NCBI RefSeq assembly: GCF_018882205.1
Contig: NZ_JACVOU010000005.1
Span: 1 to 64,000, forward strand
Length of the DNA: 64,000 nt
Direction: 5' to 3'
DNA from: Polynucleobacter bastaniensis
GTDB taxonomy: Bacteria; Pseudomonadota; Gammaproteobacteria; Burkholderiales; Burkholderiaceae
Under the pieces are notes generated by a model. The model ran no database searches, had not been told where the DNA came from, and saw only the letters and a program-made list of their open reading frames with translations. Below are positions 16,072 to 37,894 of this stretch, in pieces; within the stretch, counting starts at the first letter, position 1, and each line of letters begins with the position of its first letter. The translations under genes and the position numbers were made by a program.

Positions 16072-16640
16072 TGAGTTTGACCTGGTCGATACAGATAGAG
16101 TGATATCGGTGCCATGATGAGGATCACATATGGCAATGAAAGCTTAAAGATACTCATCAATATAAATGTGACAACAATAATGGCCAATGACTTCACATGA
16201 CGCCAGTGAGCATCACCGATTTTGTAGGTAATTGCAGCTAGTAAGCCAGTGGCAGCTGCTGCAATCCCAGCTAAGATGAAATTGATTGAAGGATGGTCTG
16301 CGGCACTAGCGTAAATCATGCCAAACCCAAGCACGAGCAATGCGCCCGGAAATATTAAGCCTAAGGTAGCGATGATGGCACCTAGAGCCCCGCGCAGGTG
16401 ATCTCCAGCGAGCACTGCTAAGTTCACGGAATTTAAGCCCGGCATTGTCTGACTAATAGCTAGATAAGCCATGAACTCATCCTCACTGAGCCACTTGCGC
16501 TTTTCAACCAAGAGAATACGTTCGTAGGCGATGATGCCCCCGCCAAAGCTGACAGCGCCAATAATCAAAAACTGAATAAATAGATCGCCTAAGCTTGGAG
16601 ACTTCGCAAGCTGCACATCATCTTGAATCTGAGAGCTCAC
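16068..16640 (-). CDS. chrA: CHR-family transporter, N-terminal-half subunit
   Basis: A 190-residue membrane protein complementary to the next gene. It has the CHR signatures VSFGGGIIAYERILLVEKRKW and AISQTMPGLNSVNLAVLAG, with five to six helices. The start is GTG at 16640 and overlaps the CYTH gene stop (GTGA), so translation is coupled to the polyphosphate genes upstream. Together the two short proteins should form the usual antiparallel heterodimer. The substrate is not shown by sequence. Confidence 0.85.
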   Translation of the reverse strand: MSSQIQDDVQLAKSPSLGDLFIQFLIIGAVSFGGGIIAYERILLVEKRKWLSEDEFMAYLAISQTMPGLNSVNLAVLAGDHLRGALGAIIATLGLIFPGALLVLGFGMIYASAADHPSINFILAGIAAAATGLLAAITYKIGDAHWRHVKSLAIIVVTFILMSIFKLSLPYVILIMAPISLYLYRPGQTQ

Positions 16641-17464
16641 TCAGGTTTTCCGTATACCAAAGCTGTTTTAGTACTACCAATTTCCAACCAGCTAGCGAGC
16701 TCAATTTGTAGTTTCTTAAAAAATTTATCGGCACGTCGATGAGCCTTTTCTTGGCCTCGGTTTGCATCGTTGACTCGATAAGAAAAAGCCAACTCTCCAA
16801 CAATCGGATCTCCCACACTCTTCATCCAAATCGCAATCTCACAATGTGCTTGTACGCCATCACCAAATACTAAGTTGCCTATTGGTAAACAGGCCTCAAG
16901 AATCTTATTGGTACGACCACCCACAATTCGAATGGGTGATTTTTTATCGATCGGTAAGGCCGTCAAACCGGGAAAATACTTAGCAACACTAGCTAAGGAT
17001 TTTTCAAACAGACTGTCAATAGGCACTGCATCCAAAATTGCGTTGTTGGAGTAAATCGCTCTGCTTGTACCGATCGTATCGCCTCGTAGAATCTCTTCCT
17101 TTAGGCGTAAACGTGATTTGATTGTTTTCTTAGGTGATGGATCAAATTCATGGGACTTCTGTAAATCACCCGTACGGCACTTTAAAGTTACCTCACACCA
17201 ATCATCTACCCAAATATTTTGACGAGACTCACGGACACGCAAAATAATATTGTTTCGTCTGAAATCCTCACCTGGGGTATCGTAAAAGTAAATATTACGT
17301 AAACCAGTTGTAGCGTTATCTAAGTGAAAAAATTCCACCTTGCTTTTTTTGCAAAACTGAAGGATTTGATCGCTCAAAGTAGTAATGCGGCTGCGCCTAT
17401 CCAAGCCCTGAGGCTTAATCAGAAGCTTGAATTCTCTATTGGTAATGCCTTGCTTTGGTTTCAA
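16637..17464 (-). CDS. CYTH-like domain protein (polyphosphate/triphosphate-linked)
   Basis: A 275-residue soluble protein. It shows the alternating charged strands of the CYTH/VTC tunnel fold: NREFKLLIKP near the start, then NIYFYDTPG, NIILRVRESR, WCEVTLKCRTGD, later SPIRIVGGRTNK and CEIAIWMKSV. These supply the inward-facing Glu, Arg and Lys residues that bind triphosphate and two metals. It follows ppk2 after 58 bases and overlaps the CHR gene, giving a ppk2-CYTH-chr-chr operon. It may hydrolyse or bind short polyphosphate; a VTC-like role is less likely without membrane segments. The conservation of the first EXEXK motif is loose (NREFKL), so enzyme activity is uncertain. Confidence 0.68.
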   Translation of the reverse strand: MKPKQGITNREFKLLIKPQGLDRRSRITTLSDQILQFCKKSKVEFFHLDNATTGLRNIYFYDTPGEDFRRNNIILRVRESRQNIWVDDWCEVTLKCRTGDLQKSHEFDPSPKKTIKSRLRLKEEILRGDTIGTSRAIYSNNAILDAVPIDSLFEKSLASVAKYFPGLTALPIDKKSPIRIVGGRTNKILEACLPIGNLVFGDGVQAHCEIAIWMKSVGDPIVGELAFSYRVNDANRGQEKAHRRADKFFKKLQIELASWLEIGSTKTALVYGKPE

Positions 17465-17522: not shown

Positions 17523-18428
17523 TCAATAGATCTCGGGAACGTACATATCTTTTGGCACCGGTCCACGGAGATAGTCAGGGTTGTGAACCCGTTCTGGCAG
17601 AGTAATCTCAGGATGCTCAATTTCCTTGTAGGGAATTTGAGTCAGCAGATGCGAAATACAATTAAGACGGGCTTTTTTCTTGTCGTTTGCAGCCACAACC
17701 CACCAAGGCGCCTCAGGAATATTCGTGCGCTCTAGCATGGTCTCTTTTGCCTTGGTATAGTCCTCCCAACGACGGCGAGCATCTAAGTCCATTGGACTCA
17801 GTTTCCATTGCTTTAATGGATCATGAATCCGTACCATGAAACGGCTATATTGTTCATCGTCTGAGATAGAGAACCAGTATTTAATCAAAATGATTCCAGA
17901 ACGGATAATCATGCGCTCAAACTCAGGGACTGTACGTAAGAACTCCTCGTACTCGACATCAGTACAAAATCCCATAACTTTTTCAACACCAGCACGGTTG
18001 TACCAGCTTCGATCAAACAAGACGATCTCACCACCAGCAGGCAAGTTTGATACGTAGCGCTGAAAGTACCATTGGGTTTTTTCACGCTCGCTAGGTGCAG
18101 TCAATGCGACGACTTTGCAAACGCGGGGGTTAAGACGTTGCGTAATTCGTTTGATCGCGCCACCCTTACCTGCAGAATCACGACCTTCAAATAAAACAGC
18201 GACCTTGAGTTTGTTTTCTACTACCCAATCTTGGAGTTTGACCAACTCACCCTGCAGGCGAAACAATTCCTTAAAGTAGACATTTCGAGGTATGACAGAG
18301 GCGCTTCCGCTATCAGGTGATAAGCGATCATCATCGAGCTCCATTTCGAGCTCTTCATCCATGCTATCAAGAATGTCTTCTCGAGCACTCTTGTACCAAT
18401 CATCTATTTCTTTATGCTTTGATGTCAT
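17523..18428 (-). CDS. ppk2: Polyphosphate kinase 2 (PPK2, class I-like)
   Basis: A 301-residue enzyme that transfers phosphate between polyphosphate and nucleotides, usually making GTP or ATP from the diphosphates. Walker A lies at 81-90 (EGRDSAGKGG). The lid region has the FDRSWYNRAGVE motif at ~138-149, and Arg-rich lid residues follow in WKLSPMDLDARRRWEDY. An acidic N-terminal extension (~1-45) precedes the kinase domain. It is the first gene of a four-gene leftward operon and has a strong Pho box 41-58 bases upstream of the start, so it should be induced by phosphate starvation. Confidence 0.93.
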   Translation of the reverse strand: MTSKHKEIDDWYKSAREDILDSMDEELEMELDDDRLSPDSGSASVIPRNVYFKELFRLQGELVKLQDWVVENKLKVAVLFEGRDSAGKGGAIKRITQRLNPRVCKVVALTAPSEREKTQWYFQRYVSNLPAGGEIVLFDRSWYNRAGVEKVMGFCTDVEYEEFLRTVPEFERMIIRSGIILIKYWFSISDDEQYSRFMVRIHDPLKQWKLSPMDLDARRRWEDYTKAKETMLERTNIPEAPWWVVAANDKKKARLNCISHLLTQIPYKEIEHPEITLPERVHNPDYLRGPVPKDMYVPEIY

Positions 18429-18468: not shown

Positions 18469-18486
18469 ATGACACTTTTATTACAT
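18469..18486 (-). promoter_or_regulatory. Pho box upstream of ppk2
   Basis: The minus strand reads ATGTAAT AAAA GTGTCAT, two PhoB half-sites (5/7 and 6/7 against CTGTCAT) with the standard 4-base spacer. A TACAAC -10 element lies 10 bases further toward ppk2, the usual arrangement in which the box replaces the -35. Confidence 0.75.
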
Positions 18487-18493: not shown

Positions 18494-19282
18494 TTATAAG
18501 GTTTTAGTAATTGCTTCCTGGCAATAGAGAGCAAGTTCCTTGCGATCCGGATTACTTGAATTACTCGTTAAATACGGCTCTATTAGGTTTAAATGCACCT
18601 CTATATCCTGGCGGCTAGAAATGACATTAGACATCGATTCCAGCAGACCCATATCGCCAATAAAGGCAGCGGCATCGCTCCTCAGACCCGTTGATCTCGA
18701 CCGGTAAGTAATAGCTATCGGCAAGACTGGTGCATGAGCCAAGATGGCGGATTCAAATAAATTGGGCTTAAACGGCAATACTGATTCCCCAGAGGTAGAT
18801 GTACCCTCAGGAAAGATACAGACCGACTCTACTTTGAGGGCTTGGGCCATCTGGTCTACTACCTGCCTCGCATGGCGCGCACTATCTCTACGAATAAAGA
18901 CGGTGCCCAGCTGCTGTGCCATCCATCCAAATACAGGCCATCCTCGCACCTCCGATTTAGCAACAAAACGGACCGGTCTAAATGCATTAATCACATGAAT
19001 ATCCAACCATGAGATGTGATTTGATGCCAGCAAATGGGGGCTAGAGTGCAATTTCTCGGCACCTATCACTCGTAACTGGATATGAAAGATTTTTAATAAT
19101 CTCTTAGACCATTGTTGTATGTGGCGGTCCTTCTGATCTCGATTGAGGAAGGGGAAAAGGAAAGATAGCGTGCATACTCCGCAATTGACATGCAACAGGA
19201 TTTGCATCCAAATCCAATAGCGAAGCCAAATACTCGGGGTTGAGGTGGGTTTTGGTGCGGGGCTTGATTGGAAATACTTCAT
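18494..19282 (-). CDS. 1-acyl-glycerol-3-phosphate/lyso-lipid acyltransferase (PlsC/OlsA family)
   Basis: A 262-residue membrane-associated acyltransferase. It has the NHxxxxD box (NHISWLD, ~89-95), a GTVFIRRD block and FPEGTS (~158). An N-terminal hydrophobic segment anchors it. PlsC makes phosphatidate; the close relative OlsA adds the second acyl chain to lyso-ornithine lipid. An OlsB-like gene lies 2.4 kb away and the gene is divergent from the lipid-remodelling operon, sharing an 84-base intergenic region with a Pho box. OlsA is therefore plausible, but the sequence does not separate the two activities. Confidence 0.85.
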   Translation of the reverse strand: MKYFQSSPAPKPTSTPSIWLRYWIWMQILLHVNCGVCTLSFLFPFLNRDQKDRHIQQWSKRLLKIFHIQLRVIGAEKLHSSPHLLASNHISWLDIHVINAFRPVRFVAKSEVRGWPVFGWMAQQLGTVFIRRDSARHARQVVDQMAQALKVESVCIFPEGTSTSGESVLPFKPNLFESAILAHAPVLPIAITYRSRSTGLRSDAAAFIGDMGLLESMSNVISSRQDIEVHLNLIEPYLTSNSSNPDRKELALYCQEAITKTL

Positions 19283-19313
19283 GTTTAACCGTAATATAAA
19301 TCAAGTCATCAAA

Positions 19314-19331
19314 CTGTCGCAAAAGTGTCAT
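19314..19331 (+). promoter_or_regulatory. Pho box upstream of the plcP-agt lipid operon
   Basis: CTGTCGC AAAA GTGTCAT gives half-sites of 5/7 and 6/7 with a 4-base spacer, 36-53 bases before the plcP ATG. CATAAT at 19340-19345 is a good -10. It lies in the divergent interval and could also affect the acyltransferase gene. Confidence 0.78.
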
Positions 19332-19366
19332 GATGCCTTCATAATGAATCGGCTTAATACGTACTC

Positions 19367-20176
19367 ATGACGCATTACAGAGCGATTTGGATTTCAGATA
19401 TACACCTCGGAACATCAGGGTGTCAGGTAAATTACCTCCTCGATTTCTTAAAGCACAATGAAGCCGATCAGATTTACCTAGTAGGCGATATTATCGATGG
19501 CTGGCGCTTAAAACAGTCGTTTTACTGGCCACAGACCCACAATGATGTCGTTCAAAAACTACTACGCAAAGCCCGTAAGGGTTCTGAAGTCATTTACATT
19601 CCTGGCAACCATGACGAAGCGGCTCGACAATACTTTGGCATGTCCTTTGGTGATATCAAGGTTCAAGAAGAGGTCATACATACAACCTTAGATGGACGTA
19701 AGCTGTGGGTAACCCATGGCGATTTATTTGATGGTGTCATGCAATACGCCAAATGGCTCGCCTATGTCGGCGACTCTCTGTATACCTTTATTTTGTACAT
19801 CAATCGCTATTTTAATATGTTGCGTGTCAGGATGGGACTGCAGTACTGGTCTCTCTCCCAATATCTCAAGCATCAAGTAAAAAATGCTGTCAGCTATATC
19901 GCAGACTTTGAGCACATCATGGCCAGAGAAGCCCGTCTAAGAAATTGTGATGGCGTCGTCTGCGGCCATATCCATAAAGCAGAAATTCGTGAAATCGATG
20001 GTCTGCTGTATTGCAACGATGGTGACTGGGTCGAAAGCTTATCAGCCCTTGTAGAAACCACAACTGGTGAACTCAAAATTATCTACTGGACACATATACA
20101 CGGTGATCTAGTAGAGGCACCTGAAATTACTCACCAACCCGAGCTATCAACACTGATTAAAGAGGTTACCGTATGA
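19367..20176 (+). CDS. plcP: PlcP-type phospholipase C (metallophosphoesterase, lipid remodelling)
   Basis: A 269-residue calcineurin-like phosphoesterase. Metal ligands are visible: D11 and H13 (SDIHLG), D41 (VGDIIDGW), N81-H82 (PGNHDE), H117 (THGDLFD) and the late GHIH. Such proteins are often annotated as LpxH-like UDP-diacylglucosamine hydrolases. This one, however, matches the longer PlcP family of rhizobia and marine bacteria (HLGTSGCQ, GWRLKQSFYWPQTHNDVVQKLLRKARKG). PlcP removes head groups from phospholipids during phosphate starvation, leaving diacylglycerol. The following gene is its usual partner glycosyltransferase (4-base overlap), and a Pho box precedes the operon. Confidence 0.82.
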   Translation: MTHYRAIWISDIHLGTSGCQVNYLLDFLKHNEADQIYLVGDIIDGWRLKQSFYWPQTHNDVVQKLLRKARKGSEVIYIPGNHDEAARQYFGMSFGDIKVQEEVIHTTLDGRKLWVTHGDLFDGVMQYAKWLAYVGDSLYTFILYINRYFNMLRVRMGLQYWSLSQYLKHQVKNAVSYIADFEHIMAREARLRNCDGVVCGHIHKAEIREIDGLLYCNDGDWVESLSALVETTTGELKIIYWTHIHGDLVEAPEITHQPELSTLIKEVTV

Positions 20177-21201
20177 AAATTATGATCATTACTGATGCAT
20201 GGGATCCACAAGTTAATGGTGTTGTGAGAACACTCAAACAAACTAGAGCTGAACTTATTGGCATGGGTCATGAAGTTGAGATGATTACCCCGACTGGCTT
20301 TAAGTCCATCCCCTGCCCCACCTACCCAGATATTGCCCTGTCCTTATTTCCCGGCAAGGAAGTGGCTCGCCGCATTAAAGAATTTGCACCAGATGCAATG
20401 CATATTGCTACTGAGGGTCCTTTAGGCTTATCAGCTCGCTCTTATGCCGTAAAGAATAATTTGCCATTCTCTACGGCCTATCACACCCGCTTTCCTGAAT
20501 ATGTCAAAGCCCGTACCGGAATTCCCCTGAGCATTACTTATGCTTTTATTCGTTGGTTTCATGGCCCTTCGATGGCAGTAATGGCGCCAACCATTGTTGT
20601 TAAAGATGATCTTGAGAAGTTTGGACTTAAAAATGTCGTATTGTGGTCACGGGGTGTGGATTTAGACATCTTCAAAATGCAAGAATCTAAATCTCTCAAT
20701 AGCGCTCACCCGATCTTTTTATATGTTGGTCGCGTTGCAGTAGAGAAAAATATCAATGCCTTCCTAGAAATAGATCTACCAGGCTCCAAATGGGTTGTTG
20801 GTGATGGTCCTGCAATGGCCAGCATTAAAGAAAAATACCCCAACATCAATTACCTAGGCGTATTACAACAAGAAGAGTTGGCCAAGGTATACGCTGCCGC
20901 CGATGTTTTTGTCTTCCCAAGCAAAACCGATACTTTTGGGCTAGTCATACTAGAGGCTATGGCTTGTGGCACTCCAGTTGCAGCCTATCCAGTGACAGGT
21001 CCAATTGATGTTTTAGGTAACTCTGCTGCTGGCGCAATGCACGAAGATCTTCAAATAGCTTGTATGCAAGCTTTGAAGATTCCTCGTGAATTAGCTCGCT
21101 CTCATGCTGAGAAGTTTTCTTGGAGAGCAGCTTCGGAGCAGTTTGCCAACCATCTAAAGCCCGTACCCTCCACAGCAGTTCATACCACTGCCCTCGCTTA
21201 A
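20173..21201 (+). CDS. agt: Glycosyltransferase family 4, Agt-like (glycolipid synthesis)
   Basis: A 342-residue GT-B enzyme. The N-terminal Rossmann lobe has DAWDPQVNGVVRTLKQT and PTYPDIALSLFPG; the middle has HIATEGPLGLSAR and YHTRFPEYVKAR. The C-terminal nucleotide-sugar lobe has WSRGVDLDIF, FVFPSKTDTFGLVILEAMACGTP (the E-x7-E region). These blocks match the Agt enzymes that add a sugar to diacylglycerol in phosphate-starved bacteria. It overlaps plcP by 4 bases. The sugar donor cannot be read from sequence. A mannosyltransferase of phosphatidylinositol is the main alternative, unlikely in this lineage. Confidence 0.82.
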   Translation: MKIMIITDAWDPQVNGVVRTLKQTRAELIGMGHEVEMITPTGFKSIPCPTYPDIALSLFPGKEVARRIKEFAPDAMHIATEGPLGLSARSYAVKNNLPFSTAYHTRFPEYVKARTGIPLSITYAFIRWFHGPSMAVMAPTIVVKDDLEKFGLKNVVLWSRGVDLDIFKMQESKSLNSAHPIFLYVGRVAVEKNINAFLEIDLPGSKWVVGDGPAMASIKEKYPNINYLGVLQQEELAKVYAAADVFVFPSKTDTFGLVILEAMACGTPVAAYPVTGPIDVLGNSAAGAMHEDLQIACMQALKIPRELARSHAEKFSWRAASEQFANHLKPVPSTAVHTTALA

Positions 21202-21210
21202 GAATTTATT

Positions 21211-21612
21211 TTGACAGCGCCCTATAACATTAAGCAAAACCCCCATAAAGGCAATCGGGGGCTCACGCGCGCGTGGCATGCAGCTAAGAATTCTTGGTGC
21301 GGCATAGTCTATGCATTTCAAGAGGAAAGTGCTTTTAGACAAGAACTGTTCCTGCTGATAGTGCTGAGCCCAATTGCCCTTTTCTTACCAGTTAATCCTC
21401 TTGAGAAATGTGCCCTGATTGCATCGCTCATCATGGTTTTAGTGGTCGAGCTACTCAATTCCAGTGTCGAGGCGGCTATCGATCGTATTTCATTTGATCA
21501 TCATGATCTATCGAAAAGAGCAAAAGATTTTGGCTCAGCTGCAGTCATGCTCGCCTTACTGATTTCCGTTCTATTGTGGGTAACGATTTGCATACCTCTG
21601 GTCATCAATTAG
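21211..21612 (+). CDS. dgkA: Diacylglycerol kinase
   Basis: A 133-residue membrane enzyme that converts diacylglycerol to phosphatidate. Three helices are present, and the signature EESAFRQE and VVELLNSSVEAAIDR...HHDLSKRAKDFGSAAV carries the catalytic Glu residues. The start is TTG at 21211, 9 bases after agt; the N-terminal NPHKGNRGL typical of the family supports it. In this operon it would recycle diacylglycerol released by PlcP that is not glycosylated, competing with Agt for the same substrate. Confidence 0.94.
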   Translation: MTAPYNIKQNPHKGNRGLTRAWHAAKNSWCGIVYAFQEESAFRQELFLLIVLSPIALFLPVNPLEKCALIASLIMVLVVELLNSSVEAAIDRISFDHHDLSKRAKDFGSAAVMLALLISVLLWVTICIPLVIN

Positions 21613-21632
21613 TTTAATACTTAAGGAACACT

Positions 21633-22568
21633 ATGTCTGATATTCCAAATCCCCTTGCTGCATTTGATCTTTTTAATTCTCGCTTTGAAGTAAAGCCAAA
21701 AAAGACTAAAAAGAGTAAAACTGAGGCATTTAAAAAACTCTTTTCTAAAAAAATTACGAAGAAATTATTTGGTAAGAAATTTGCTACTAAAGCTAGAGCT
21801 GAGCTGAGTTCTATAGAGCCTGTAGCTGAGAAGACATTAACCAAGCCAAAGCGCCCTGCATTTCAAATTACTTGGGCTAGTAATACGAGTGAGATTAAAG
21901 AGGCTCAGCGCCTACGCTACAAGGTGTTTGCAGAAGAAATGGGGGCTAATCTTCCAAGCAATCCAGAGAACCTCGATATTGATGAATTCGATGCCTACTG
22001 CGACCATTTACTGATACGTGATCAGGAATCATTAAGAGTTGTTGGCACCTATCGCGTTCTCCCTCCGCACAAAGCTTTAGAAATAGGACGCCTCTACTCA
22101 GATTCTGAGTTTGATTTAAGCCGCTTGGATCACTTGCGCCCTAAACTAGTTGAGCTCGGTAGATCTTGCGTACACGAAGACTTTCGTTCTGGCGCAGTCA
22201 TCATGGCTTTGTGGAGCGGCTTAGCGCAATACATGCTAAAACACGATTATGAAATCATGCTTGGTTGTGCCAGCATACCTATGGCTGATGGCGGTCATTT
22301 TGCAGCCAGCCTGTACAACTCGTTAAGCAATGATCAGATGGCGCCAGTTGAGAATCATGCTTTTCCTCGCTTACCCTTGCCACTGGAGCGACTTAATGGC
22401 GGCTTAGATGTAGAGCCCCCACCCTTGATCAAAGGTTATTTGAAGTTGGGCGCTAAGATTTGTAGCGCACCAGCCTGGGATCCAGATTTCAACACAGCTG
22501 ATGTATTGACTATGTTGCGCCTATCGGAAATCAATCCTCGCTACGCTAAACACTTCTTCGGGCAGTAA
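21633..22568 (+). CDS. olsB: Ornithine N-acyltransferase-like GNAT protein (OlsB family)
   Basis: A 311-residue protein of the acyl-homoserine-lactone-synthase/OlsB branch of GNAT enzymes. The N-terminal ~65 residues are Lys-rich and probably flexible. The domain starts at ITWASNTSEIKEAQRLRYKVFAEEMG, continues with LRVVGTYRVLPP and LVELGRSCVHEDFRSGAVIMALWSGLAQY, and ends with the GCASIPMADGGHFAASLYNSL region seen in OlsB. OlsB puts a 3-hydroxyacyl group on ornithine, giving the lyso form of the phosphorus-free ornithine lipid. Its place behind plcP-agt-dgkA supports a phosphate-saving role. The gene has its own AAGGA ribosome site. Confidence 0.75.
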   Translation: MSDIPNPLAAFDLFNSRFEVKPKKTKKSKTEAFKKLFSKKITKKLFGKKFATKARAELSSIEPVAEKTLTKPKRPAFQITWASNTSEIKEAQRLRYKVFAEEMGANLPSNPENLDIDEFDAYCDHLLIRDQESLRVVGTYRVLPPHKALEIGRLYSDSEFDLSRLDHLRPKLVELGRSCVHEDFRSGAVIMALWSGLAQYMLKHDYEIMLGCASIPMADGGHFAASLYNSLSNDQMAPVENHAFPRLPLPLERLNGGLDVEPPPLIKGYLKLGAKICSAPAWDPDFNTADVLTMLRLSEINPRYAKHFFGQ

Positions 22569-22571
22569 GAA

Positions 22572-24110
22572 TTACTTTAAGCTAATGCTGTAAGGTCGGC
22601 CGATGCGTTCCCATTCGGCCGCTTCTTTTTGAAGGCTAAATTCCGTTAAGGGATGTTCTCTAGCCCAGTCTTTGGAGAGACTAACCAAATAGTCCCCATT
22701 GTGCTCAGAGACCTTTACTTTGGGTAAGTTGACATCACTGCGCCCACGGCAAAGTACTTGCGCAAGCCGCATGCAAAATAACATACGCCAATCAGAGAAA
22801 GAGACATTGTTGGCTAACTTCCCTAACTTACCGGTGTGGCCAATCAATAAGGCGGCTAGTCTAGCTTGATCGTTCTTTGAGAAACCCGGCATATCAGCAT
22901 TACCAGCAATGTATGCAGAATGTTTATGATATCCGTTATGTGAAATTGATAAGCCGATTTCATGAAGATTAGCGGCCCATTGCAATAAAGCGATGTTATC
23001 CGCCCTACTCTCTTCCTCAGGTCTAGGTAACTGCGCTAAAAACTCAGCAGCTAGATTGCCAACACGCTTAGCTTGTTCTCGATCTACAGCGTAACGCTGC
23101 ATAAATTGCTCAACTGTTACAAAGCGCATATCCTCATGCTGAGAGCGGCCCAATAGGTCATAAAGGACACCGATTCTCAAAGCGGCATCAGTGACCTCCA
23201 TAGACTCAATACCAAGCTCATCAAATACAGCAATCATGATGGCAAGGCCACCGGGCCAAACTGAGCGCCTGTCGTCCTTGAGGCCTGGTAACTCGACCTG
23301 GTTGATATGCTCATATTTAAGCAGGTGCTTTTTCATGGCTCTTAAGCCATCGCGAGTAATCAACCCATCGGTACCATCTTTCTGGCCATTGAAGTTATTC
23401 TCCGCAATGAGTTCTGCTAAGGCGCGTGCGGTTCCTGAAGAGCCGATCACTTGTTTCCAGCCGGCATTCAGATACGCCCCAGAAATGACCTGAATTTCTC
23501 TTCTAGCCGCCAGCTCTGCCTCTTTGAAGGCATGAGAATCGACATTGCCCTTTGGAAAAAATCTGAGGCTATGAGAAACACATCCGATATAGAGGCTTTC
23601 CATCAACTTGGGCTCGTAACCTTTGCCAATGATCAACTCAGTAGAGCCTCCACCAATATCTACCACCAAGCGATTACCCTGCACTGCGGGCACTTCATGC
23701 GCAGCACCGATATAGATTAGGCGCGCCTCTTCTACGCCTGCGATCACTTCAATGGGGAAACCTAAGGCTCCCTCGGCTTCTTGGATAAAGTGAGGTGCAT
23801 TCTTGGCCACTCGTAAGGTGTTGGTGGCAACAGCACGCACATTGGCAGGATCAAAGCCCCGAATACGCTCACCAAAACGCCGAATTGCCGCAATTCCTCG
23901 CTGATAAGCGTCATTGCCCAATAATTTATTGTCAGTTAAGCCAGCAGCCAGGCGGACAGACTCACGCAGCGTATCAATCGGACGCAGCTGTGTACCTGAA
24001 GGCGTCTTGACAACTTGGGCTACCAGCATACGAAAGCTATTAGAGCCAAGGTCAACTGCAGCGACTAGCTCAGTTGCATTCATTACAGATTTATTTTGAT
24101 GTAAGGCCAC
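22572..24110 (-). CDS. ppx: Exopolyphosphatase (Ppx/GppA family)
   Basis: A 512-residue ASKHA-fold phosphatase that releases phosphate from polyphosphate ends. It shows the phosphate-1 loop (VAAVDLGSNSFRMLVAQV), FPIEVIAGVEEARLIYIG, VVDIGGGSTELIIG and SSGTARAL. The C-terminal helical HD-like part starts around residue 325. The first ATG (24110) gives MALHQNKSVMNATELV; ATG 24083 (MNATELV) is equally likely. The gene converges with olsB (3-base gap) and has a Pho box 44-61 bases upstream, linking it to the same regulon as ppk2. Confidence 0.93.
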   Translation of the reverse strand: MALHQNKSVMNATELVAAVDLGSNSFRMLVAQVVKTPSGTQLRPIDTLRESVRLAAGLTDNKLLGNDAYQRGIAAIRRFGERIRGFDPANVRAVATNTLRVAKNAPHFIQEAEGALGFPIEVIAGVEEARLIYIGAAHEVPAVQGNRLVVDIGGGSTELIIGKGYEPKLMESLYIGCVSHSLRFFPKGNVDSHAFKEAELAARREIQVISGAYLNAGWKQVIGSSGTARALAELIAENNFNGQKDGTDGLITRDGLRAMKKHLLKYEHINQVELPGLKDDRRSVWPGGLAIMIAVFDELGIESMEVTDAALRIGVLYDLLGRSQHEDMRFVTVEQFMQRYAVDREQAKRVGNLAAEFLAQLPRPEEESRADNIALLQWAANLHEIGLSISHNGYHKHSAYIAGNADMPGFSKNDQARLAALLIGHTGKLGKLANNVSFSDWRMLFCMRLAQVLCRGRSDVNLPKVKVSEHNGDYLVSLSKDWAREHPLTEFSLQKEAAEWERIGRPYSISLK

Positions 24111-24153
24111 AACATTTCCAATAGAAGCAGGTTTTCTTGAATGTGTCTATCTT

Positions 24154-24171
24154 ATGAAACTCTAATGACAC
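24154..24171 (-). promoter_or_regulatory. Pho box upstream of ppx
   Basis: The minus strand reads GTGTCAT TAGA GTTTCAT, half-sites 6/7 and 5/7 with a 4-base spacer. The downstream -10 is weak, so confidence is lower than at ppk2. Confidence 0.62.
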
Positions 24172-24208
24172 ATTCGTGAAACAAGACCCTAGTCTACTGG
24201 GAAGTAGC

Positions 24209-24532: not shown

Positions 24533-24952
24533 ATGCTGTATCAAATTATCCCTCTTGAAATGGGCTCTCTAGTCCAAAGATATATCTTTCAAAAACAGAA
24601 TAAAGAAATTAAATGTGGAACGGTTTGGAAGCTTGGCTCCATCACCACCCCTACCAAGCCAAAGTTCATCAGTCACTATCAAGCTCAAGTAGGAATTTGT
24701 ATTGCCGACATTCCTGGGGCAGAAATCAGCAAGACTTATGATGGGGAGAAGGTAATCTACTTTTCTGAGACCATTGATGAAGATGAGCAAGATGAGCTTA
24801 CGGATATTTTCTATGGAAAATCAAAAAAGTTTTCCGGGGAATACGCACATGTCTTTCAAGATCTGGGGTGGAAAGAATTAGGAGAGAATACCTATATCTT
24901 CGGTGAGCTAGAAATTAAAGAGATCAGCGATGAACCTCAGCAATATAAATAA
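24533..24952 (+). CDS. Hypothetical protein (139 aa)
   Basis: A soluble acidic protein without recognised domains. It seems to form a beta-rich N-terminal part (LYQIIPLEMGSLVQRYIF, then VGICIADIPGAEI) and an acidic loop (ETIDEDEQDELTD), ending in ELEIKEISDEPQQYK. The start has GGAGA 5 bases upstream. The phosphoesterase gene follows after 27 bases on the same strand and may be cotranscribed. Nothing shows a function. Confidence 0.6.
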   Translation: MLYQIIPLEMGSLVQRYIFQKQNKEIKCGTVWKLGSITTPTKPKFISHYQAQVGICIADIPGAEISKTYDGEKVIYFSETIDEDEQDELTDIFYGKSKKFSGEYAHVFQDLGWKELGENTYIFGELEIKEISDEPQQYK

Positions 24953-24979: not shown

Positions 24980-25948
24980 ATGAAATCTTTCAAAACAATA
25001 CGCTTAAGCGTATTTTTTCTCACTATCACCATAGCAAGCTTTTCAACGGTTGCCATCGGCCAGACATTTAAGTTCATAGCTCTGGGTGATATGCCCTACT
25101 CACCACCCAAAGATTTTCAACGCTTTGAAACCTTAATTACAGAAATAAACGGACTAAAACCCAGTTTCAGTATATTTATTGGGGATACAAAATCTGGCTC
25201 ATCACTCTGTAGTGATGAGCATAACCAAATTATCAAATCCTATTTTTCAAGCTTTAATGCACCCTTGGTCTACAGCCCAGGAGATAACGAATGGACTGAC
25301 TGCCACCGACCTTTAGCTGGTGCGTACGATCCATTGGAAAGACTAGAAGCTCTTAGGTCGGTATTTTTTAGCACTAATCAAAGCCTAGGTAAAAATACCC
25401 TACGTCTTCAAAGGCAATCTGATCTAGACCCTAAGTATTCCAAGTATGTGGAAAACGCTTACTGGGTTAAAAATAATTTTTTGTTTGTCAGCATTCATAT
25501 ACCCGGTTCCAATAACAATAACGAGGGTACAGAGTCAGCAATCAAAGAATATCAAGGTAGAAATCAAGCTAATCTGGCATGGATTGATCGGGCATTTAAT
25601 TTGGCTACCCAAAGAAATTTGAGCGGTATCATATTTGCCTATCAAGCTGATATGTTTTACCAGCCTAGCCAACTGACAAGCACCGATAGTGGCTATCGCG
25701 ATACATTAGAAAGCCTCATATCTAGATCGGAGATTTTTAATAAACCAGTGTTATTGATTCATGGTGATAGTCATCGACTCATCATTGACCAGCCCCTCTA
25801 TCGTAAGAATCAAAAAAGAGTACTAGAAAATGTATTACGACTTCAGGTGATGGGAGCTGAACAAGTTCAAGCCGTTGAAGTTCAGGTTAATCCTGCGCAA
25901 GAACAGCCCTTTAGCTTCAAACCAATTATTCTCAAAAAAAATAACTAG
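24980..25948 (+). CDS. Exported metallophosphoesterase (calcineurin-like)
   Basis: A 322-residue protein with an N-terminal signal peptide (hydrophobic LSVFFLTITIASFSTVAIG, cut near IGQ). Calcineurin-type metal motifs are present: ALGDMPY, FIGDTKSG, SPGDNEWTDC and the late LIHGDSHRLI. The usual final GHxH is replaced by GDSH, as in a subgroup of periplasmic phosphoesterases. It probably hydrolyses phosphoesters outside the cytoplasm. No Pho box was seen in front, but the surrounding genes are phosphate-related. The substrate is unknown. Confidence 0.8.
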   Translation: MKSFKTIRLSVFFLTITIASFSTVAIGQTFKFIALGDMPYSPPKDFQRFETLITEINGLKPSFSIFIGDTKSGSSLCSDEHNQIIKSYFSSFNAPLVYSPGDNEWTDCHRPLAGAYDPLERLEALRSVFFSTNQSLGKNTLRLQRQSDLDPKYSKYVENAYWVKNNFLFVSIHIPGSNNNNEGTESAIKEYQGRNQANLAWIDRAFNLATQRNLSGIIFAYQADMFYQPSQLTSTDSGYRDTLESLISRSEIFNKPVLLIHGDSHRLIIDQPLYRKNQKRVLENVLRLQVMGAEQVQAVEVQVNPAQEQPFSFKPIILKKNN

Positions 25949-27134: not shown

Positions 27135-28880
27135 CTAACGCTTGGTATAACCTAGCCCAAGAGTTTCAACCATTACCTTGAATACCTCTGTGTTATCCAT
27201 AAATCCACGGAACTTTTCTGATCCGGGCCCCATAGCATTGAGCACTGCATCATCAGCTGTGTGAACACCCATCTCTTGATGCGAAGGCAAGTTACCAGTC
27301 ATGTGAATAGCATCTTCTTGTAGCTGAATATATTTAGGGTTAGCAACATACTTGCCAGACTCATCTTTCACTGCTGGCTTAAATGTGCCGTCTAGTTTTG
27401 GATGAAGCGTTTCATAGTGATCGGGATAGTTCCCATAAAAGAAGGCCAAACGTTTGCTCACATCAATCTGATTTGGATAACCTGCCACATCCGCTTTAGG
27501 ATAGTTCGGGTAGCCAGCATCTGCATATACCCCAACCTTTTCCCTTAGGGGTCCTGGTTTAGCATCATTCACAACACCACTGATTGAGCCACTATGGGTA
27601 TGGTCAGGGGTAACAATAATGAGAGTGTCTGGATTTTTCTTCGCAAAATCTTTTGCAATTTGTACGGCATTACTCAGCATGATGGTGTCAAAAGCAGCTC
27701 GCTCCCAATCCAGCGGATGATTAAACTTATCAATTAAGGCAGCTTCAACCATCAAGAAAAAACCATTAGGGTTTTTGGATAAGACATTGATCGCTGCTTG
27801 CGTCATCTCCGTTAAATCAGGCTGATCAGGATATTGCGCCACTGTATTTTTCTTTAAGAAAAGCCGGTCTAATGAACCATCCATATTATCTGGATGAAAT
27901 ACTCCAAATAGCTTTCTAGTTTCTTTAGCATTACCTGCTGCCAATAACTCTTGTTTATTTAAGGCGATTGAATACCCCGAAGAGTTAAATTGGGATACCA
28001 GATTTTTATCATCCTTACGCTTTGACCCTTTAGTAGACTGCGGGTAAAAGTAAGCGGAGCCTCCACCTAAAATGACCTCCGCCCCACTAGCAAATAGTTG
28101 ATCGGCAATGTACGGTTTATCAGCGCGTCTTCTGGTGTGAGCCACCATAGCACCAGGAGTTGCATCCTGTAGCTCGGCATCCGAGACAATGCCAACGGAC
28201 ATTTTAGTTTTGCGCTTAATTAATTCAGAAATAGTTTCCACTTTCGGGTGGGATAGGTTGTCTGCCGCCCTTGAAACATAAACCCCCATAGCGTTCACTG
28301 CAGTCTTATGACCTGTTGTATAAGCGTTCATTGAGTTTGCAGAATCGGTAATGAGTGAGTCAGAGCCTGATGTGCCGATTAGCGCCATATTAGGCATGTC
28401 ATCAAATGACAACTTACCCTGGTATTTACCTTCGGTTATCCCCTTAGATAAAACACGTGCAGATGTTCTGTTGGCGATAGTCATACCATCACCCACAAAA
28501 AGAATGATATTTTTTACTTTTCGAGGGCCGCTGGCATAGATGTCCCAAGTGACTTGGATACTTTCCTGACCCCCCTTAGCAATCAAAGAATACTGACCAG
28601 GCTTTGCTAGCTGAACGTCTCGATAAATCAGGGAACTTCCTTTACCTGATTCATTTGCGATATAGATTGGCTGTGACTTGATCTGCGCCTTGATAGGCGC
28701 ATTATTGAGTTGAATATCCAAATCCTCTAATTTGTACTCTTGATCAAATTCAACTTTGATATCAAATGACGAGCCAACAAGAATCGAAGCCTTGTTGATG
28801 GGGTAAATAGCTGCTGCCTCAACCCAAACTGCCTGGAGAAGAAGGGAAATAAATAAAATTGGATAGGCAATTTTGCTCAT
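27135..28880 (-). CDS. phoA: Alkaline phosphatase (PhoA family)
   Basis: A 581-residue periplasmic enzyme releasing phosphate from monoesters. The signal peptide (FISLLLQAVWVEAAA) is followed by a ~95-residue Ig-like N-terminal domain, which is extra to classical PhoA. The catalytic part has ILFVGDGM (metal-binding D), the nucleophile S180 in TDSANSMNAYTTG, GAEVILGGGS, VEAALIDKFNH and IIVTPDHTHSG. It is longer than E. coli PhoA (~470) because of this extra domain and C-terminal insertions. A palindromic Pho box lies 55-72 bases upstream. Confidence 0.92.
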   Translation of the reverse strand: MSKIAYPILFISLLLQAVWVEAAAIYPINKASILVGSSFDIKVEFDQEYKLEDLDIQLNNAPIKAQIKSQPIYIANESGKGSSLIYRDVQLAKPGQYSLIAKGGQESIQVTWDIYASGPRKVKNIILFVGDGMTIANRTSARVLSKGITEGKYQGKLSFDDMPNMALIGTSGSDSLITDSANSMNAYTTGHKTAVNAMGVYVSRAADNLSHPKVETISELIKRKTKMSVGIVSDAELQDATPGAMVAHTRRRADKPYIADQLFASGAEVILGGGSAYFYPQSTKGSKRKDDKNLVSQFNSSGYSIALNKQELLAAGNAKETRKLFGVFHPDNMDGSLDRLFLKKNTVAQYPDQPDLTEMTQAAINVLSKNPNGFFLMVEAALIDKFNHPLDWERAAFDTIMLSNAVQIAKDFAKKNPDTLIIVTPDHTHSGSISGVVNDAKPGPLREKVGVYADAGYPNYPKADVAGYPNQIDVSKRLAFFYGNYPDHYETLHPKLDGTFKPAVKDESGKYVANPKYIQLQEDAIHMTGNLPSHQEMGVHTADDAVLNAMGPGSEKFRGFMDNTEVFKVMVETLGLGYTKR

Positions 28881-28934: not shown

Positions 28935-28952
28935 ATGTCATTTTCATGACAT
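28935..28952 (-). promoter_or_regulatory. Pho box upstream of phoA
   Basis: The minus strand reads ATGTCAT GAAA ATGACAT. The first half-site is 6/7 and the second 5/7. The site is also an inverted repeat, so it looks the same from both sides. CATAAT, 13 bases nearer phoA, is a good -10. Confidence 0.65.
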
Positions 28953-32329: not shown

Positions 32330-33628
32330 TTAAGCTGAAATACGCTCCTTAGAAAATCGAAGAGTAAAAGTGCTGCCCTGTCCGGGCATACTAGTAATGA
32401 TGAGTTGGGCTTGATGGCGGTTTGCAATATGCTTCACAATTGCCAAGCCCAAACCAGTGCCTCCAGTATCCCTAGATCGACTTCTATCCACGCGATAGAA
32501 GCGCTCAGTCAATCTAGATAGATGCTCTGATGCAATACCCGGCCCCGTGTCAACGACTGAAAACTCGCCTTCACCACGTTCATTTACACTCCATTGCACC
32601 TTAATCGAGGCGGTATCTGGTGTGTAACGAATAGCATTGGAGACTAGATTGCCAAAGGCAGAAAGAATCTCCCGCTCCTCTCCCATCAAGTTATTTGGAT
32701 TCGAGATCTCAAAGCTCAGGATATGATGGCCTTGAGAAAGTGCCTCTGCATCATTCTTTAACAGTGCCATCAGAGTAGTGATACTGATTTCTTGTGTTGG
32801 GGCAGGCAAGGTGTTTGCCTCTAGATTAGCCAAAGTCAATAAGTCTTCCACCAAACTCTTCATTCGCTGAGCCTGAGACATCATCATTTCAAAATATTGA
32901 CTTTGCTGGGATCTATCCAAGTCGAGCGACTGCATGGTCTCTAAAAAACCCATCAAAACAGTAATTGGCGTTCTCATTTCATGCGAAACGTTTGCTACGA
33001 AATCACGTCGCATTGCATCAGCCTTCTGAAGATCAGTTACGTCCTGCACAAGCAAGAGATGTCGTTGATCACCGAATGGGAAAATTTGTAACATCAAACT
33101 CAGATTAGAGTTTGACCCCATTCTCTCCATCAACAATGGATCCTCAAAGGCCCTCTTGTATAAATACTGAATAAATTCTGGGCGTCGAATCAAAAAATTA
33201 ATCTTTTGAAGCGCATCACGCTTGAAACTCAAGCCAAAGAAACGCTCAGCAATGGCATTGCACCACTCAATATGATCTTCACTATCCAGCATCACAATGC
33301 CATTAGGAGAAGCCTGAAAAGCCTCAATGAAACGATTGTGCTGCTGCTCAATAGATAATATTTGCTGTTTGAGATTGCGGACTAAGCGCTGAAGGCGAAA
33401 AAAGATCTCTTCCCAATACCCACTTGGCAAAGGCATGGATTCGACTGAGTCGGATAAGGTAAATTTTCTTAAACGCGCTAAGTTAATGTAGGAATAAATC
33501 AAGGGCACTGCGAGCACAGATATAGCAGCTGCAATCCCCGAAAAGGGGCCTAAATTTGAGGAAGCTATGTACGCCATAAGAAAAGCCAGGCAAATCAGCA
33601 CAATAAAGCGAGAAATAACGGATAACAT
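32330..33628 (-). CDS. phoR: Phosphate-regulon sensor histidine kinase PhoR
   Basis: A 432-residue inner-membrane kinase. Two N-terminal helices (~5-50) with almost no periplasmic loop are followed by a PAS domain (~100-195), the dimerisation helix with phosphorylated H216 (VANVSHEMRTP), and the ATPase domain with N, G1 (VVDTGPGIASEHL), F and G2 (GGTGLGLAIVKH) boxes. PhoR senses phosphate through Pst and PhoU and phosphorylates PhoB. It is the last gene of the pst-pho cluster, separated from phoB by 61 bases. Confidence 0.95.
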   Translation of the reverse strand: MLSVISRFIVLICLAFLMAYIASSNLGPFSGIAAAISVLAVPLIYSYINLARLRKFTLSDSVESMPLPSGYWEEIFFRLQRLVRNLKQQILSIEQQHNRFIEAFQASPNGIVMLDSEDHIEWCNAIAERFFGLSFKRDALQKINFLIRRPEFIQYLYKRAFEDPLLMERMGSNSNLSLMLQIFPFGDQRHLLLVQDVTDLQKADAMRRDFVANVSHEMRTPITVLMGFLETMQSLDLDRSQQSQYFEMMMSQAQRMKSLVEDLLTLANLEANTLPAPTQEISITTLMALLKNDAEALSQGHHILSFEISNPNNLMGEEREILSAFGNLVSNAIRYTPDTASIKVQWSVNERGEGEFSVVDTGPGIASEHLSRLTERFYRVDRSRSRDTGGTGLGLAIVKHIANRHQAQLIITSMPGQGSTFTLRFSKERISA

Positions 33629-33689: not shown

Positions 33690-34403
33690 TTAGGTCTGGG
33701 TCGGCATCTTGGTAATTCGATAACCGCTTCCACGAACCGTCTCTATGAAGCGATCAGAGTCCGAAGGAGATAGAGCTGCCCTTAACCTCTTGATATGAAC
33801 ATCGACCGTCCGCTCCTCGATATAGACCTCATTCCCCCAAACCTTATCGAGCAAATTTGCCCGAGAGTGAACCCTTTCAGGATTACTCATCAAAAACTGT
33901 AATAATCGATATTCGGTGGGACCCAAGGGAATAGATTGAGGCTCCATATTGGGCCAAACAGCCGTCACACGATGAGATAGGGGATCCATTCTCAATGGGC
34001 CCACAGCTAAGGGTCCAGCATCTTCTAATGGGGTTTGGCGACGTAAAAGTGCCTTTACGCGTGCGACCAACTCTTTAGGCGAAAAAGGCTTAGTAACGTA
34101 ATCATCGGCACCAGAGTCTAAGCCGAGGACCTTATCGGACTCATCGCTCTTGGCTGTCAACATCAAGATAGGTAAAGAGCGAGTACGCTCATTTGATCTT
34201 AGCTCTTTAGCAAATTGAACACCTGATTTACCAGGGAGCATCCAGTCTAAGATCAAAAGAGAGGGCAGCTGATCTCGCATCATATTCATAGCGAGATCAG
34301 TCTGAAGAGCCCTCTCCACTTCATAGCCAGCATGAGTCAGGTTGATTGCAATGAGTTCAGCAATCGAAGGCTCATCCTCAACAACTAATATTCGGTGAGT
34401 CAT
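33690..34403 (-). CDS. phoB: Phosphate-regulon response regulator PhoB
   Basis: A 237-residue OmpR-type regulator. The receiver domain has the acidic pair in VVEDEPS, phospho-acceptor D53 (ILDWMLPG) and K in YVTKPFSP. The C-terminal winged helix (~135-230) has the recognition region VYIEERTVDVHIKRLRAAL and RGSGYRI. It should bind the Pho boxes described in this window. It lies 21 bases after phoU. Confidence 0.96.
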   Translation of the reverse strand: MTHRILVVEDEPSIAELIAINLTHAGYEVERALQTDLAMNMMRDQLPSLLILDWMLPGKSGVQFAKELRSNERTRSLPILMLTAKSDESDKVLGLDSGADDYVTKPFSPKELVARVKALLRRQTPLEDAGPLAVGPLRMDPLSHRVTAVWPNMEPQSIPLGPTEYRLLQFLMSNPERVHSRANLLDKVWGNEVYIEERTVDVHIKRLRAALSPSDSDRFIETVRGSGYRITKMPTQT

Positions 34404-34424: not shown

Positions 34425-35132
34425 TTACGGTTTATTTGCCTCGCGGACTAAATCCTCGTGAGGGATATGGCGAACATCAGAGCCTTTGGCAATGTAAATA
34501 ACGAATTCAGCAATGTTTTTTGAATGGTCACCAATACGCTCAATTGCCTTAGCAATAGTCAACATATCCAAACCTGTTGAAATCGTATGTGGATCTTCCA
34601 TCATGTAGGAAATCAGCTTGCGAACAAAGCCCCTGAACTCTTCATCAATTTGGCGATCTTCCTCCACCACTTCTGCAGCAGCAACGGTATCTAACCTTGC
34701 AAAAGCATCCAAACTACGGCGCAAGAGAGAGATTGCCATTTGTCCAGATAAACGAATTTCAGCAACGTTAATGTTGTGAATAGCTCCCGACTCAATTAAG
34801 CGCTTGGTTCTTTTAGCAACGCGCTCAGCTTCATCGCCAGCACGTTCTAAATTGGTGATTGCTTTCGATACAGCCATGACGAGACGAAGATCTCGCGCAG
34901 TAGGCTGACGACGAGCAATAAGTTCAGTGCAAGCTAAGTCAATCTGAATCTCGAGATCATTCACGAGCTTTTCGTTCTGGATAACCACGTCACAGGTATC
35001 AATATCCATTTGCGTGAAAGCGCGCATTGCCGTTGAAATCTGAGACTCAACGAGTCCACCCATTTCTAATAAACGGCTAGAAAGTGAATTTAAATCTGCG
35101 TCAAACTGTGACGAAAGGTGTTTATCAGGCAT
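34425..35132 (-). CDS. phoU: Phosphate signalling regulator PhoU
   Basis: A 235-residue helical protein with the two three-helix PhoU repeats. Each repeat has a metal-binding E/DxxxD-type segment (ITNLERAGDEAERVAKR and IAKAIERIGDHSKNIAEFV). It links Pst transport to PhoR and keeps PhoR inactive when phosphate is plentiful. The start at 35132 (MPDKHL) is chosen because GGAG lies 6 bases before it; upstream in-frame TTG and ATG codons add four residues at most. Confidence 0.95.
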   Translation of the reverse strand: MPDKHLSSQFDADLNSLSSRLLEMGGLVESQISTAMRAFTQMDIDTCDVVIQNEKLVNDLEIQIDLACTELIARRQPTARDLRLVMAVSKAITNLERAGDEAERVAKRTKRLIESGAIHNINVAEIRLSGQMAISLLRRSLDAFARLDTVAAAEVVEEDRQIDEEFRGFVRKLISYMMEDPHTISTGLDMLTIAKAIERIGDHSKNIAEFVIYIAKGSDVRHIPHEDLVREANKP

Positions 35133-35144
35133 GTGCATCTCCAA

Positions 35145-35936
35145 TTAACCGAAACGGCCAGTAATGTAATCTTCTGTTTCTTTACGCTTAGGCTTGATGA
35201 AGATTTCATCAGTCTTACCGTACTCAATCAAACTGCCAAGATACATATATGCAGTGTAATCTGATACGCGAGCGGCTTGTTGCATATTATGAGTAACAAT
35301 CGCAATGGTGTATTCATGCTTGAGCTCATTAATCAGCTCTTCAATCTTACCGGTAGAGATTGGATCCAAGGCAGAGGTTGGCTCATCAAGCAACATAACC
35401 GAAGGCTTAACAGCCACACCACGGGCAATACACAAACGCTGCTGTTGACCACCGGAAAGTGATAAACCGCTTTGGTTTAACTTGTCTTTTGCTTCATTCC
35501 ACAAAGCAGCTTTATTTAAGGCCCACTCTACACGCTCATCCATTTCGGAGCGGGAAAGTTTTTCATAAAGACGTACACCGAAAGCAATGTTTTCATAAAT
35601 AGACATTGGGAATGGCGTTGGCTTTTGAAAAACCATACCGATTCTTGAGCGCAGTAGATTCACATCTTGATCAGGAGTCAAGATATTCTGGCCATAGAAG
35701 TTAATCTCACCCTCGGCACGTTGGCCTGGATAAAGGCTATACATACGATTCAAGGTTCTGAGCAAAGTAGATTTGCCGCAACCGGAAGGACCAATAAAGG
35801 CGGTAACTTTACCCTCTTCAATGTCCAAGTTAATATTTTGCAAACCCTGAAAGGATCCGTAGAAAAAGTTTAGGTTACGCACTTCGATTGCATTCTTAAC
35901 CGCAGCTGGTGCGTTTTGGCTTGTCGTTTCGTTCAT
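35145..35936 (-). CDS. pstB: Phosphate ABC transporter ATP-binding protein PstB
   Basis: A 263-residue ATPase of the Pst importer. It has Walker [10 protein letters not shown], the Q-loop [13 protein letters not shown], signature LSGGQQQRL, Walker [13 protein letters not shown] and the switch His in VTHNMQQA. The frame opens at 35993, but ATG 35936 is preceded by AAGGAG and gives the usual length (E. coli 257), so it is preferred. The longer form would overlap the pstA stop by one base. Confidence 0.96.
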
Positions 35937-35992
35937 TACTGCTCCTTGACCATCGATCTTGTTTAAGTCAAACATTGTTTTCATATCACTCA

Positions 35993-37845: not shown

Positions 37846-37869
37846 GATTATGCTTATTTAAATATTGAA

Positions 37870-37894
37870 ACAGCCCCACTTTAGATGGGGCTGT
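37870..37894 (-). terminator. Stem-loop between pstS and pstC (partial terminator/processing site)
   Basis: ACAGCCCCA and TGGGGCTGT form a 9-bp stem with a 7-base loop. On the minus strand it is followed by TTCAATATTT, a broken T-tract. Such a hairpin would let more pstS than pstCAB message accumulate, matching the need for excess binding protein. Confidence 0.7.

Follow-up and report, generated by a model that had tools for sequence, protein, structure and literature searches.

A Pho-boxed plcP-agt-dgkA-olsB unit in Polynucleobacter, a predicted PhoB-controlled operon for membrane-lipid replacement

A 64,000-nucleotide stretch of the Polynucleobacter bastaniensis genome (contig NZ_JACVOU010000005.1, positions 1 to 64,000; hereafter the window, part of contig 6 of a 2.14-Mb assembly) carries four consecutive genes, plcP, agt, dgkA and olsB, behind a conserved Pho site. 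We consider, with a probability of roughly 85%, that they constitute a PhoB-controlled operon for membrane-lipid replacement. A preliminary description of this DNA had proposed such a phospholipid-replacement unit, and this is still the best reading of the gene families, the box and the tree, from which the lipids and their induction are predicted. At low phosphate, phosphorylated PhoB, itself encoded in the window, would bind two tandem Pho boxes and start an almost leaderless plcP-agt-dgkA-olsB transcript. PlcP would then split phospholipids into diacylglycerol (DAG) and a phospho-headgroup, Agt would convert DAG to a phosphorus-free glycolipid, and DgkA would return surplus DAG to phosphatidate. 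OlsB would make lyso-ornithine lipid, the substrate from which OlsA, encoded divergently, would form ornithine lipid.

The four genes lie on the forward strand at 19367-20176 (plcP), 20173-21201 (agt), 21211-21612 (dgkA) and 21633-22568 (olsB). By their open reading frame (ORF) coordinates, the end of plcP overlaps the start of agt by 4 bp, and gaps of 9 bp and 20 bp separate agt from dgkA and dgkA from olsB. The tight spacing and the PlcP-type, Agt-like, DgkA and OlsB-like identities given in the preliminary description are therefore confirmed, and the families agree. The plcP product is a calcineurin-like phosphoesterase according to Pfam and NCBIfam matches, a tree, its metal-site motifs and the presence of a separate true LpxH in the genome. 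The agt gene encodes an Agt-like GT4 protein, a predicted diacylglycerol glycosyltransferase by family and by position behind plcP. A DAGK_prokar protein is encoded by dgkA, which has a TTG start as listed and is the sole PF01219 gene found in the genome. The olsB product is an Acetyltransf_5/OlsB protein, a GNAT resembling ornithine N-alpha-acyltransferases, whose N-terminus is extended by a Lys-rich stretch of about 75 aa. The span described earlier covered these four genes correctly, but it left outside the divergent olsA (18494-19282, reverse strand), a lyso-ornithine-lipid O-acyltransferase-like gene for which the OlsA models are best.

The Pho site consists of four direct repeats with 11-bp spacing (AGTCAT, TGTCGC, TGTCAT and CTTCAT; 19304-19342, forward strand), recognized by column conservation and by a matrix and corresponding to two tandem Pho boxes. 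Repeats 2 and 3 make up the 7+4+7 sequence CTGTCGC-AAAA-GTGTCAT (19314-19331), which had been noticed before. That box is real and not a chance match, but the actual site is about twice as long. We aligned 32 of 34 same-genus plcP promoters and that of the window without gaps from the start codon (L057, at a contig end, and L066, a remnant, were dropped). In these 33 promoters the repeat cores start at -62, -51, -40 and -29 relative to the start codon, and columns -68 to -1 carry an average of 1.01 bits of information each, versus 0.31 farther upstream. Upstream repeats with 11-bp spacing are conserved across species, and PhoB, PhoR, PhoU and PstSCAB are all encoded inside the 64-kb window, both as expected for a member of the Pho regulon.

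A Pho-box matrix for repeats 2-3, built from the 32 congeneric plcP promoters with the window excluded, ranked the plcP site first in the 64 kb, with a score of 22.6 (the best scores in three shuffled windows were 15.7, 16.7 and 11.9). Sites just upstream of pstS (21.1), ppk2 (20.8) and phoA (20.2) held ranks 2 to 4; the next matches, inside agt (13.3) and at ppx (13.2), fell within the shuffle range. Throughout the genome, TGTCATNAAANTGTCAT with at most 2 mismatches occurred at 13 sites, versus 1 for the reversed control pattern. Five of them are in the window, at plcP, ppk2, phoA, pstS and ppx, and four precede genes for a phasin, a polyhydroxybutyrate (PHB) depolymerase, a protein of the Polyketide_cyc/lipid-transport family and a second GT4. 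Two more (L098 and L099) precede small unknown ORFs only, and the matches in L104 and L107, located inside genes, were taken as chance. A triple-repeat pattern gave 6 matches in the whole genome versus 1 for its control, 2 of the 6 at the plcP site. The matches before the phasin and PHB depolymerase genes (G000:C2:535095-535111 and G000:C1:224838-224854, respectively) stand just ahead of them; polyhydroxybutyrate turnover may belong to the Pho regulon.

Downstream of the repeats, a conserved -10-like element, GGCTTAAT (19351-19358, forward strand; -16 to -9), ends 8 bp before the plcP ATG. Its AAT is identical in 33 of 33 promoters, and its CTTAAT begins 10 bp past the fourth repeat. The -10 proposed earlier (CATAAT, 19340-19345) is misplaced: part of it falls within repeat 4 of the Pho site (CTTCAT, 19337-19342). 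A scan of the region found no sigma-70 -35/-10 pair for plcP. Since the conserved element ends so close to the ATG, transcription probably starts within a few bases of it, and the plcP transcript is probably leaderless or nearly so. The Shine-Dalgarno match before plcP is at most 3 nt in 30 of 32 congeners and that before agt at least 4 nt in 31 of 32, a weak comparison given that, among the rest of the window genes checked, most reach just 4 nt, and ppk2 and olsA 3 nt.

The four-gene unit is nearly genus-wide in Polynucleobacter. Among 34 same-genus loci, 27 contain plcP-agt-dgkA-olsB in order, and in 5 dgkA is missing from its place between agt and olsB; the rest are L065, which has all four genes with plcP and olsA frameshifted, and L066, which has remnants. 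In 186 congeneric genomes raw matches were obtained for olsB in 174 and for plcP in 173, two of the latter (G027 and G184) being only of LpxH strength; the tree confirmed that of G027 as LpxH, while some genomes, among them G100 and G184, were classed by E-value alone. The closest named locus, from Polynucleobacter sp. MWH-Berg-3C6 (87% in PlcP), nests among the same-genus rows of the PlcP tree. The preliminary description called the unit notable in a streamlined freshwater betaproteobacterium. Its operon architecture is indeed unusual, but it is not specific to the strain, being found in most of the genus. Disrupted loci, chosen for showing stops or split matches, include five (L194, L195, L197, L065 and L066) in which several genes of the region are jointly affected by stops, frameshifts or a deletion; fewer genes are affected in L196 and L198. 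The joint-decay genomes are single-contig and of 1.6-1.9 Mb. They probably belong to host-associated species. The joint decay looks like what would be expected of ciliate endosymbionts, which are known in Polynucleobacter (PMC5018217). In some of these genomes PhoB is missing or broken as well (G017, G084 and G088).

Among named relatives at least 578 stretches were confirmed; the best 80 were all typed, and 79 were box-scored (L154 was too short). The types are plcP-agt (20 loci), plcP-agt-dgkA (19, including Cupriavidus, Burkholderia, Paraburkholderia, Caballeronia and SAR116), plcP alone (18), olsB-plcP-agt (10), olsB-plcP (10, including Acidovorax, Curvibacter, Limnohabitans and Undibacterium), the four-gene order (2) and plcP-olsB (1). 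A Pho-like match of at least 10/14 is present in 54 of the 79 upstream regions, versus 7% of random stretches. The two phosphorus-free lipid routes adjoin in at least three different gene orders. The four-gene order itself is not general in Burkholderiales: one of its 2 occurrences in 80 loci is from Polynucleobacter, and in the other olsB is set off by about 860 bp from the gene before it.

The distribution of dgkA follows that of plcP. Good genomes, with completeness of 90% or more and contamination of 5% or less, number 144 among the congeners, and in 7 of them (G017, G027, G088, G107, G134, G164 and G184) not one PF01219 gene is present. None of these 7 has an intact plcP: four show no match, two a match of LpxH strength only, and one a remnant. 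The overlap with the 9 good genomes in which plcP is absent or a remnant has p = 1.6e-10 if genomes are independent, which they are not; moreover, a single deletion removes both plcP and an in-operon dgkA. More telling than the in-operon losses is the case of G027 and G184, which group 100/100 with G032 in the PhoB tree. The only dgkA of G032 lacks a box and belongs to the divergent paralogues; plcP is about 72 kb away. G027 and G184 are sisters in that tree, and the loss of dgkA and plcP there may be one event. In G085 and G087, a stop in plcP is accompanied by stops in dgkA.

Fifteen dgkA matches outside the operon, in 13 genomes, were picked by hand and do not represent a census. Ten are orthologues (59-71% identity) and five are divergent paralogues (36-48%; one start codon is uncertain). 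In 9 of the 10 orthologues TGACAT-N5-TGTCA[T/C] is found 39-44 bp before the ATG, followed by GCTTAAT (8) or GCTAAAT (1). Eight of these 9 boxes score above 8.6. This value is the 95th percentile for random 250-bp stretches drawn from the congeneric loci in which the ppk2 box was scored, a random set that includes real boxes and has a 99th percentile of 20.8. No Pho box was found before any of the five divergent paralogues. In L228 a UDP-glucose dehydrogenase gene lies divergently to the relocated dgkA; in L229 and L230 the divergent gene, as judged by eye, encodes a like protein, and in L230 dgkA also adjoins phoB- and phoU-like ORFs (by eye). UDP-glucose dehydrogenase produces UDP-glucuronate, the donor for glucuronosyl-DAG, and for this reason the neighbourhood fits.

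These patterns raise the possibility, which we hold tentatively and at somewhat below even odds, that the DgkA of Polynucleobacter is a dedicated Pho-regulon partner of PlcP and no general housekeeping kinase. PlcP would be the main source of DAG in the cell, so that a DAG kinase would be required only where PlcP works. A loop from phospholipid through DAG to phosphatidate, induced by starvation, would run alongside glycolipid and ornithine-lipid synthesis, and selection would hold dgkA under a Pho box after it has left the operon. Several genomes weigh against this partnership. A dgkA match is kept in G100 (plcP remnant by E-value) and in G193 (no plcP match, in a 170-contig assembly), and G023 and G084 combine an intact dgkA with a broken plcP next to it. 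In addition, the relocated orthologue in L224 has no Pho box, and G032, G009 and G029 showed only the divergent paralogue, without a box. In any case, the pattern makes the role of diacylglycerol kinase in PlcP bacteria directly testable.

The same four genes could be read differently, with the Pho box serving plcP and agt only while dgkA and olsB are transcribed from internal promoters of their own and take part in ordinary lipid metabolism. Such independence would agree with the absence of dgkA from the unit in 5 of 34 congeneric loci and with the different placement of dgkA and olsB elsewhere in the order. We find it quite improbable, however, given gaps of only 9 and 20 bp, a terminator scan of the region that yielded no excess over chance, the own Pho box of relocated dgkA in 9 of the 10 orthologues examined, and the chaining of olsB with plcP in 23 of the 80 loci of relatives, in three orders. 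Another possibility accepts the PhoB-controlled operon but gives the glycosyltransferase a non-DAG acceptor, such as phosphatidylglycerol or an envelope glycan, and lets PlcP mainly feed DgkA and phospholipid turnover. The nearest NCBIfam model of Agt is in fact N-acetylglucosaminyl-phosphatidylglycerol synthase (90/480 bits), which is no DAG transferase, and this model fixes neither the donor sugar nor the acceptor, a point against the glycolipid step; among the 25 of 27 matches listed there is no model named for proteobacterial Agt. Furthermore, by the chaining rule used, plcP occurs without agt or olsB in 18 of the 80 relatives, and the second Pho-boxed GT4 of the genome could be the DAG glycosyltransferase. 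On the other hand, the gene immediately after plcP is agt in 51 of the 80 best loci (20+19+10+2), the second-best model is alpha-monoglucosyl-DAG synthase (65.8 bits, with a cut-off of 400), and the Agt proteins of P. aeruginosa and SAR11 have been shown to make monoglucosyldiacylglycerol (MGDG) and/or glucuronic acid diacylglycerol (GADG) (PMC8528852, PMC4796936). Non-DAG glycosylation accordingly seems unlikely to us, and Agt-like function is predicted from the GT4 domain and context, not from a model. The second GT4 (G000:C4:16331-17596; L110:4832-6097) shares 30% identity with Agt and has a Pho-box match directly at its start, which recalls the Agt1/Agt2 pair of P. aeruginosa.

Least of all do we favour the view that the first gene is LpxH, or an LpxH-like enzyme for lipid A, in an envelope-biogenesis operon that lies near Pho genes by chance. 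The two proteins do belong to the same metallophosphoesterase superfamily, and the nine best solved-structure matches of PlcP (30-46 bits) are all named UDP-2,3-diacylglucosamine hydrolase, with one weaker match after them. To this extent the earlier remark that the gene would normally be mislabelled LpxH is borne out, but the LpxH models themselves score far under their cut-offs (TIGR01854, 40.7 bits, cut-off 190.35; PRK05340, 46.8 bits, cut-off 134). A separate gene elsewhere in the genome passes the LpxH cut-off with 229.2 bits and immediately follows a gene for a peptidyl-prolyl isomerase (identified by eye). Clustering with true LpxH had been named beforehand as the outcome that would speak against a PlcP; in a tree of 60 rows, 11 LpxH rows are fully split from 49 PlcP rows with 100/100 support, though the LpxH branches are long and drew a warning from the tool. 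Absence or decay of plcP in 9 of the 144 good congeneric genomes (G193 is perhaps an assembly gap) would also be unexpected for an essential lipid A gene. In 20 aligned sequences the PlcP residues D11, H13, G40, D41, G80, N81, H82, D83, E84, H117, G200, H201 and H203 are invariant; we take them to represent the calcineurin-like metal-site motifs DxH, GD, GNH[DE], H and GHxH. With an LpxH identity thus ruled out by the sub-cut-off scores, the separate true LpxH and the tree split, the motif conservation and gene context indicate that the first gene is of the PlcP type.

Some observations weigh against the reading as a PhoB-controlled lipid-replacement operon. The box of the window itself (repeats 2-3) has 3 mismatches in 14 positions to the consensus CTGTCATNNNNCTGTCAT, and the tree rows include no characterised PlcP (S. 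meliloti, P. aeruginosa, MED193) or Agt proteins. The top NCBIfam models of OlsB are indeed OlsB models, at 175.8 and 175.2 bits, below their cut-offs of 350 and 320; the top models of OlsA are OlsA models, at 132.2 and 131.4 bits, below cut-offs of 300. Finally, no sense-strand Pho box for olsA was found in the 15 congeneric upstream regions scored, other loci having been dropped where the match starts after residue 20 or the stretch is short.

The only other PF01553 protein of the genome scores 31.0 and 46.8 bits on the OlsA models, on which the window protein is 2.8-4.3 times higher. With the PlsC domain model TIGR00530, OlsA of the window reaches 98.6 and the other protein 80.2, both under 102.95. 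PlsC is the less likely identity for the divergent acyltransferase: the OlsA models make the other PF01553 protein the better PlsC candidate, and L065, L066 and L195 have a disrupted copy of the window-type gene. The genes for both predicted steps of ornithine-lipid synthesis thus flank the Pho site. A sigma-70-like olsA promoter (TTGCGA-18-TATATT; 19293-19322, reverse strand) overlapping the Pho repeats is weak, because the sigma-70 scan found 4 promoter-like sites in the region versus 8.6 expected by chance. As no Pho box was found for olsA in its own orientation, its expression is probably basal, and Pho-induced OlsB would be combined with basal OlsA.

The Lys-rich N-terminal extension of OlsB (21633-21860 in the window) is at least partly present in 6 of 7 congeneric rows, including the window, and absent in two order relatives; it is perhaps a membrane-binding tail. 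One congeneric genome has a second, diverged olsB copy with 69% identity (G147:C1:9782-10690). A third phosphorus-free lipid is possible in the P. bastaniensis genome, which encodes a PF11899/DUF3419 protein (G000:C4:23489-24739; L110:11990-13240, reverse strand; 332.8 bits), a family that we take to include the betaine-lipid enzyme BtaA. Its neighbour is GNAT-like, with no obvious BtaB.

The arrangement is new, but its kind is already known, since plcP-agt with Pho boxes has been established in P. aeruginosa and in marine bacteria (PMC8528852, PMC4796936). In P. aeruginosa, PA3219-PA3218 and PA0842 show the same features as here: plcP followed by a GT4 agt, a Pho box ahead, and a second Pho-boxed GT4 elsewhere (PMC8528852). 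In the Polynucleobacter unit, in contrast, agt is followed by dgkA and olsB as part of one apparent operon, with a divergent olsA, a doubled Pho site and a seemingly near-absent leader. Of the marine plcP neighbourhood types 1-6, type 2 has plcP and then agt, as here, whereas none, as described in the accessible text, has olsB or dgkA beside plcP (PMC4796936). The preliminary description found the combination of both routes with a DAG kinase notable. This holds for the operon architecture, but joint induction has already been published: PlcP, DagK, OlsA and OlsB are raised together under phosphate stress in Pseudomonas putida BIRD-1 and are called PHO-dependent (PMC5082522). In that strain olsA/olsB (locus tags 0974/0975) are far from plcP (1390) (PMC5082522), while here plcP and olsB share one apparent operon, with olsA divergent. 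Burkholderia sensu lato has the same OlsB and OlsA acyltransferases with predicted Pho control of olsB, Pho boxes being predicted before it in 21 of 43 genomes (PMC7814305); here, unlike there, olsB is the last gene of a plcP operon, and the two aligned order relatives have no counterpart of its N-terminal extension. Agrobacterium (PMC3972451) and Methylosinus (PMC9239053) are known to respond with glycolipids and ornithine lipids in combination.

In the literature searched, which left most subscription papers outside, no paper joining Polynucleobacter and plcP was found, nor any description of the evolutionary dgkA pattern. In the texts available there, dgkA and plcP appeared together only with dgkA in a gene list, and Polynucleobacter with ornithine lipid only in the context of Burkholderia taxonomy. 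The lipid-replacement literature found covers, as far as its available text goes, marine, soil, plant-associated and clinical bacteria and methanotrophs. Polynucleobacter has been described as ranking among the most abundant bacteria of fresh water (PMC5069759). If the operon works as we infer, most of the genus can spare phosphorus by a change of its membrane, which bears on phosphorus use in lakes.

Other phosphate genes surround the unit. The preliminary description omitted these as well as olsA, though its idea of Pho-controlled lipid replacement stands. All are on the reverse strand. The gene ppk2 (polyphosphate kinase 2; 17523-18428; 371.9 bits, cut-off 301.8) has a Pho box at 18469-18485 (matrix score 20.8). 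In 22 of 22 congeneric loci scored, the best match is 34-47 bp upstream of ppk2, with scores of 7.5-20.8, and 21 of the 22 exceed 8.6. Convergent with olsB lies ppx (exopolyphosphatase; 22572-24110; curated families), preceded by Pho-box-like repeats (24143-24181) that are weaker than the other boxes: they score 22.3 by a matrix of repeats 2-4 (shuffles at most 19.3) and 13.2 by that of repeats 2-3. The ppx upstream regions of 27 of 29 congeners are above 8.6, at varying distance. Further on are a phoA-type alkaline phosphatase gene (27135-28880; PF00245, 251.7 bits) with a Pho box at 28935-28951 (20.2), phoR (32330-33628; PhoR model 415.7 bits, cut-off 334.2), phoB (33690-34403; PhoB model 318.3 bits, cut-off 296.2) and phoU, pstB, pstA, pstC and pstS (34425-38954), each above at least one equivalog cut-off; the Pho box of pstS is at 39015-39031 (21.1).

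Among these genes, those at 24980-25948 (322 aa) and 16637-17464 (275 aa) match neither Pfam nor NCBIfam at E 0.001. The 139-aa protein encoded at 24533-24952 represents a family without a Pfam or NCBIfam match, and a 47% relative lies directly behind the relocated, Pho-boxed dgkA in L228. This family may travel with phosphate genes.

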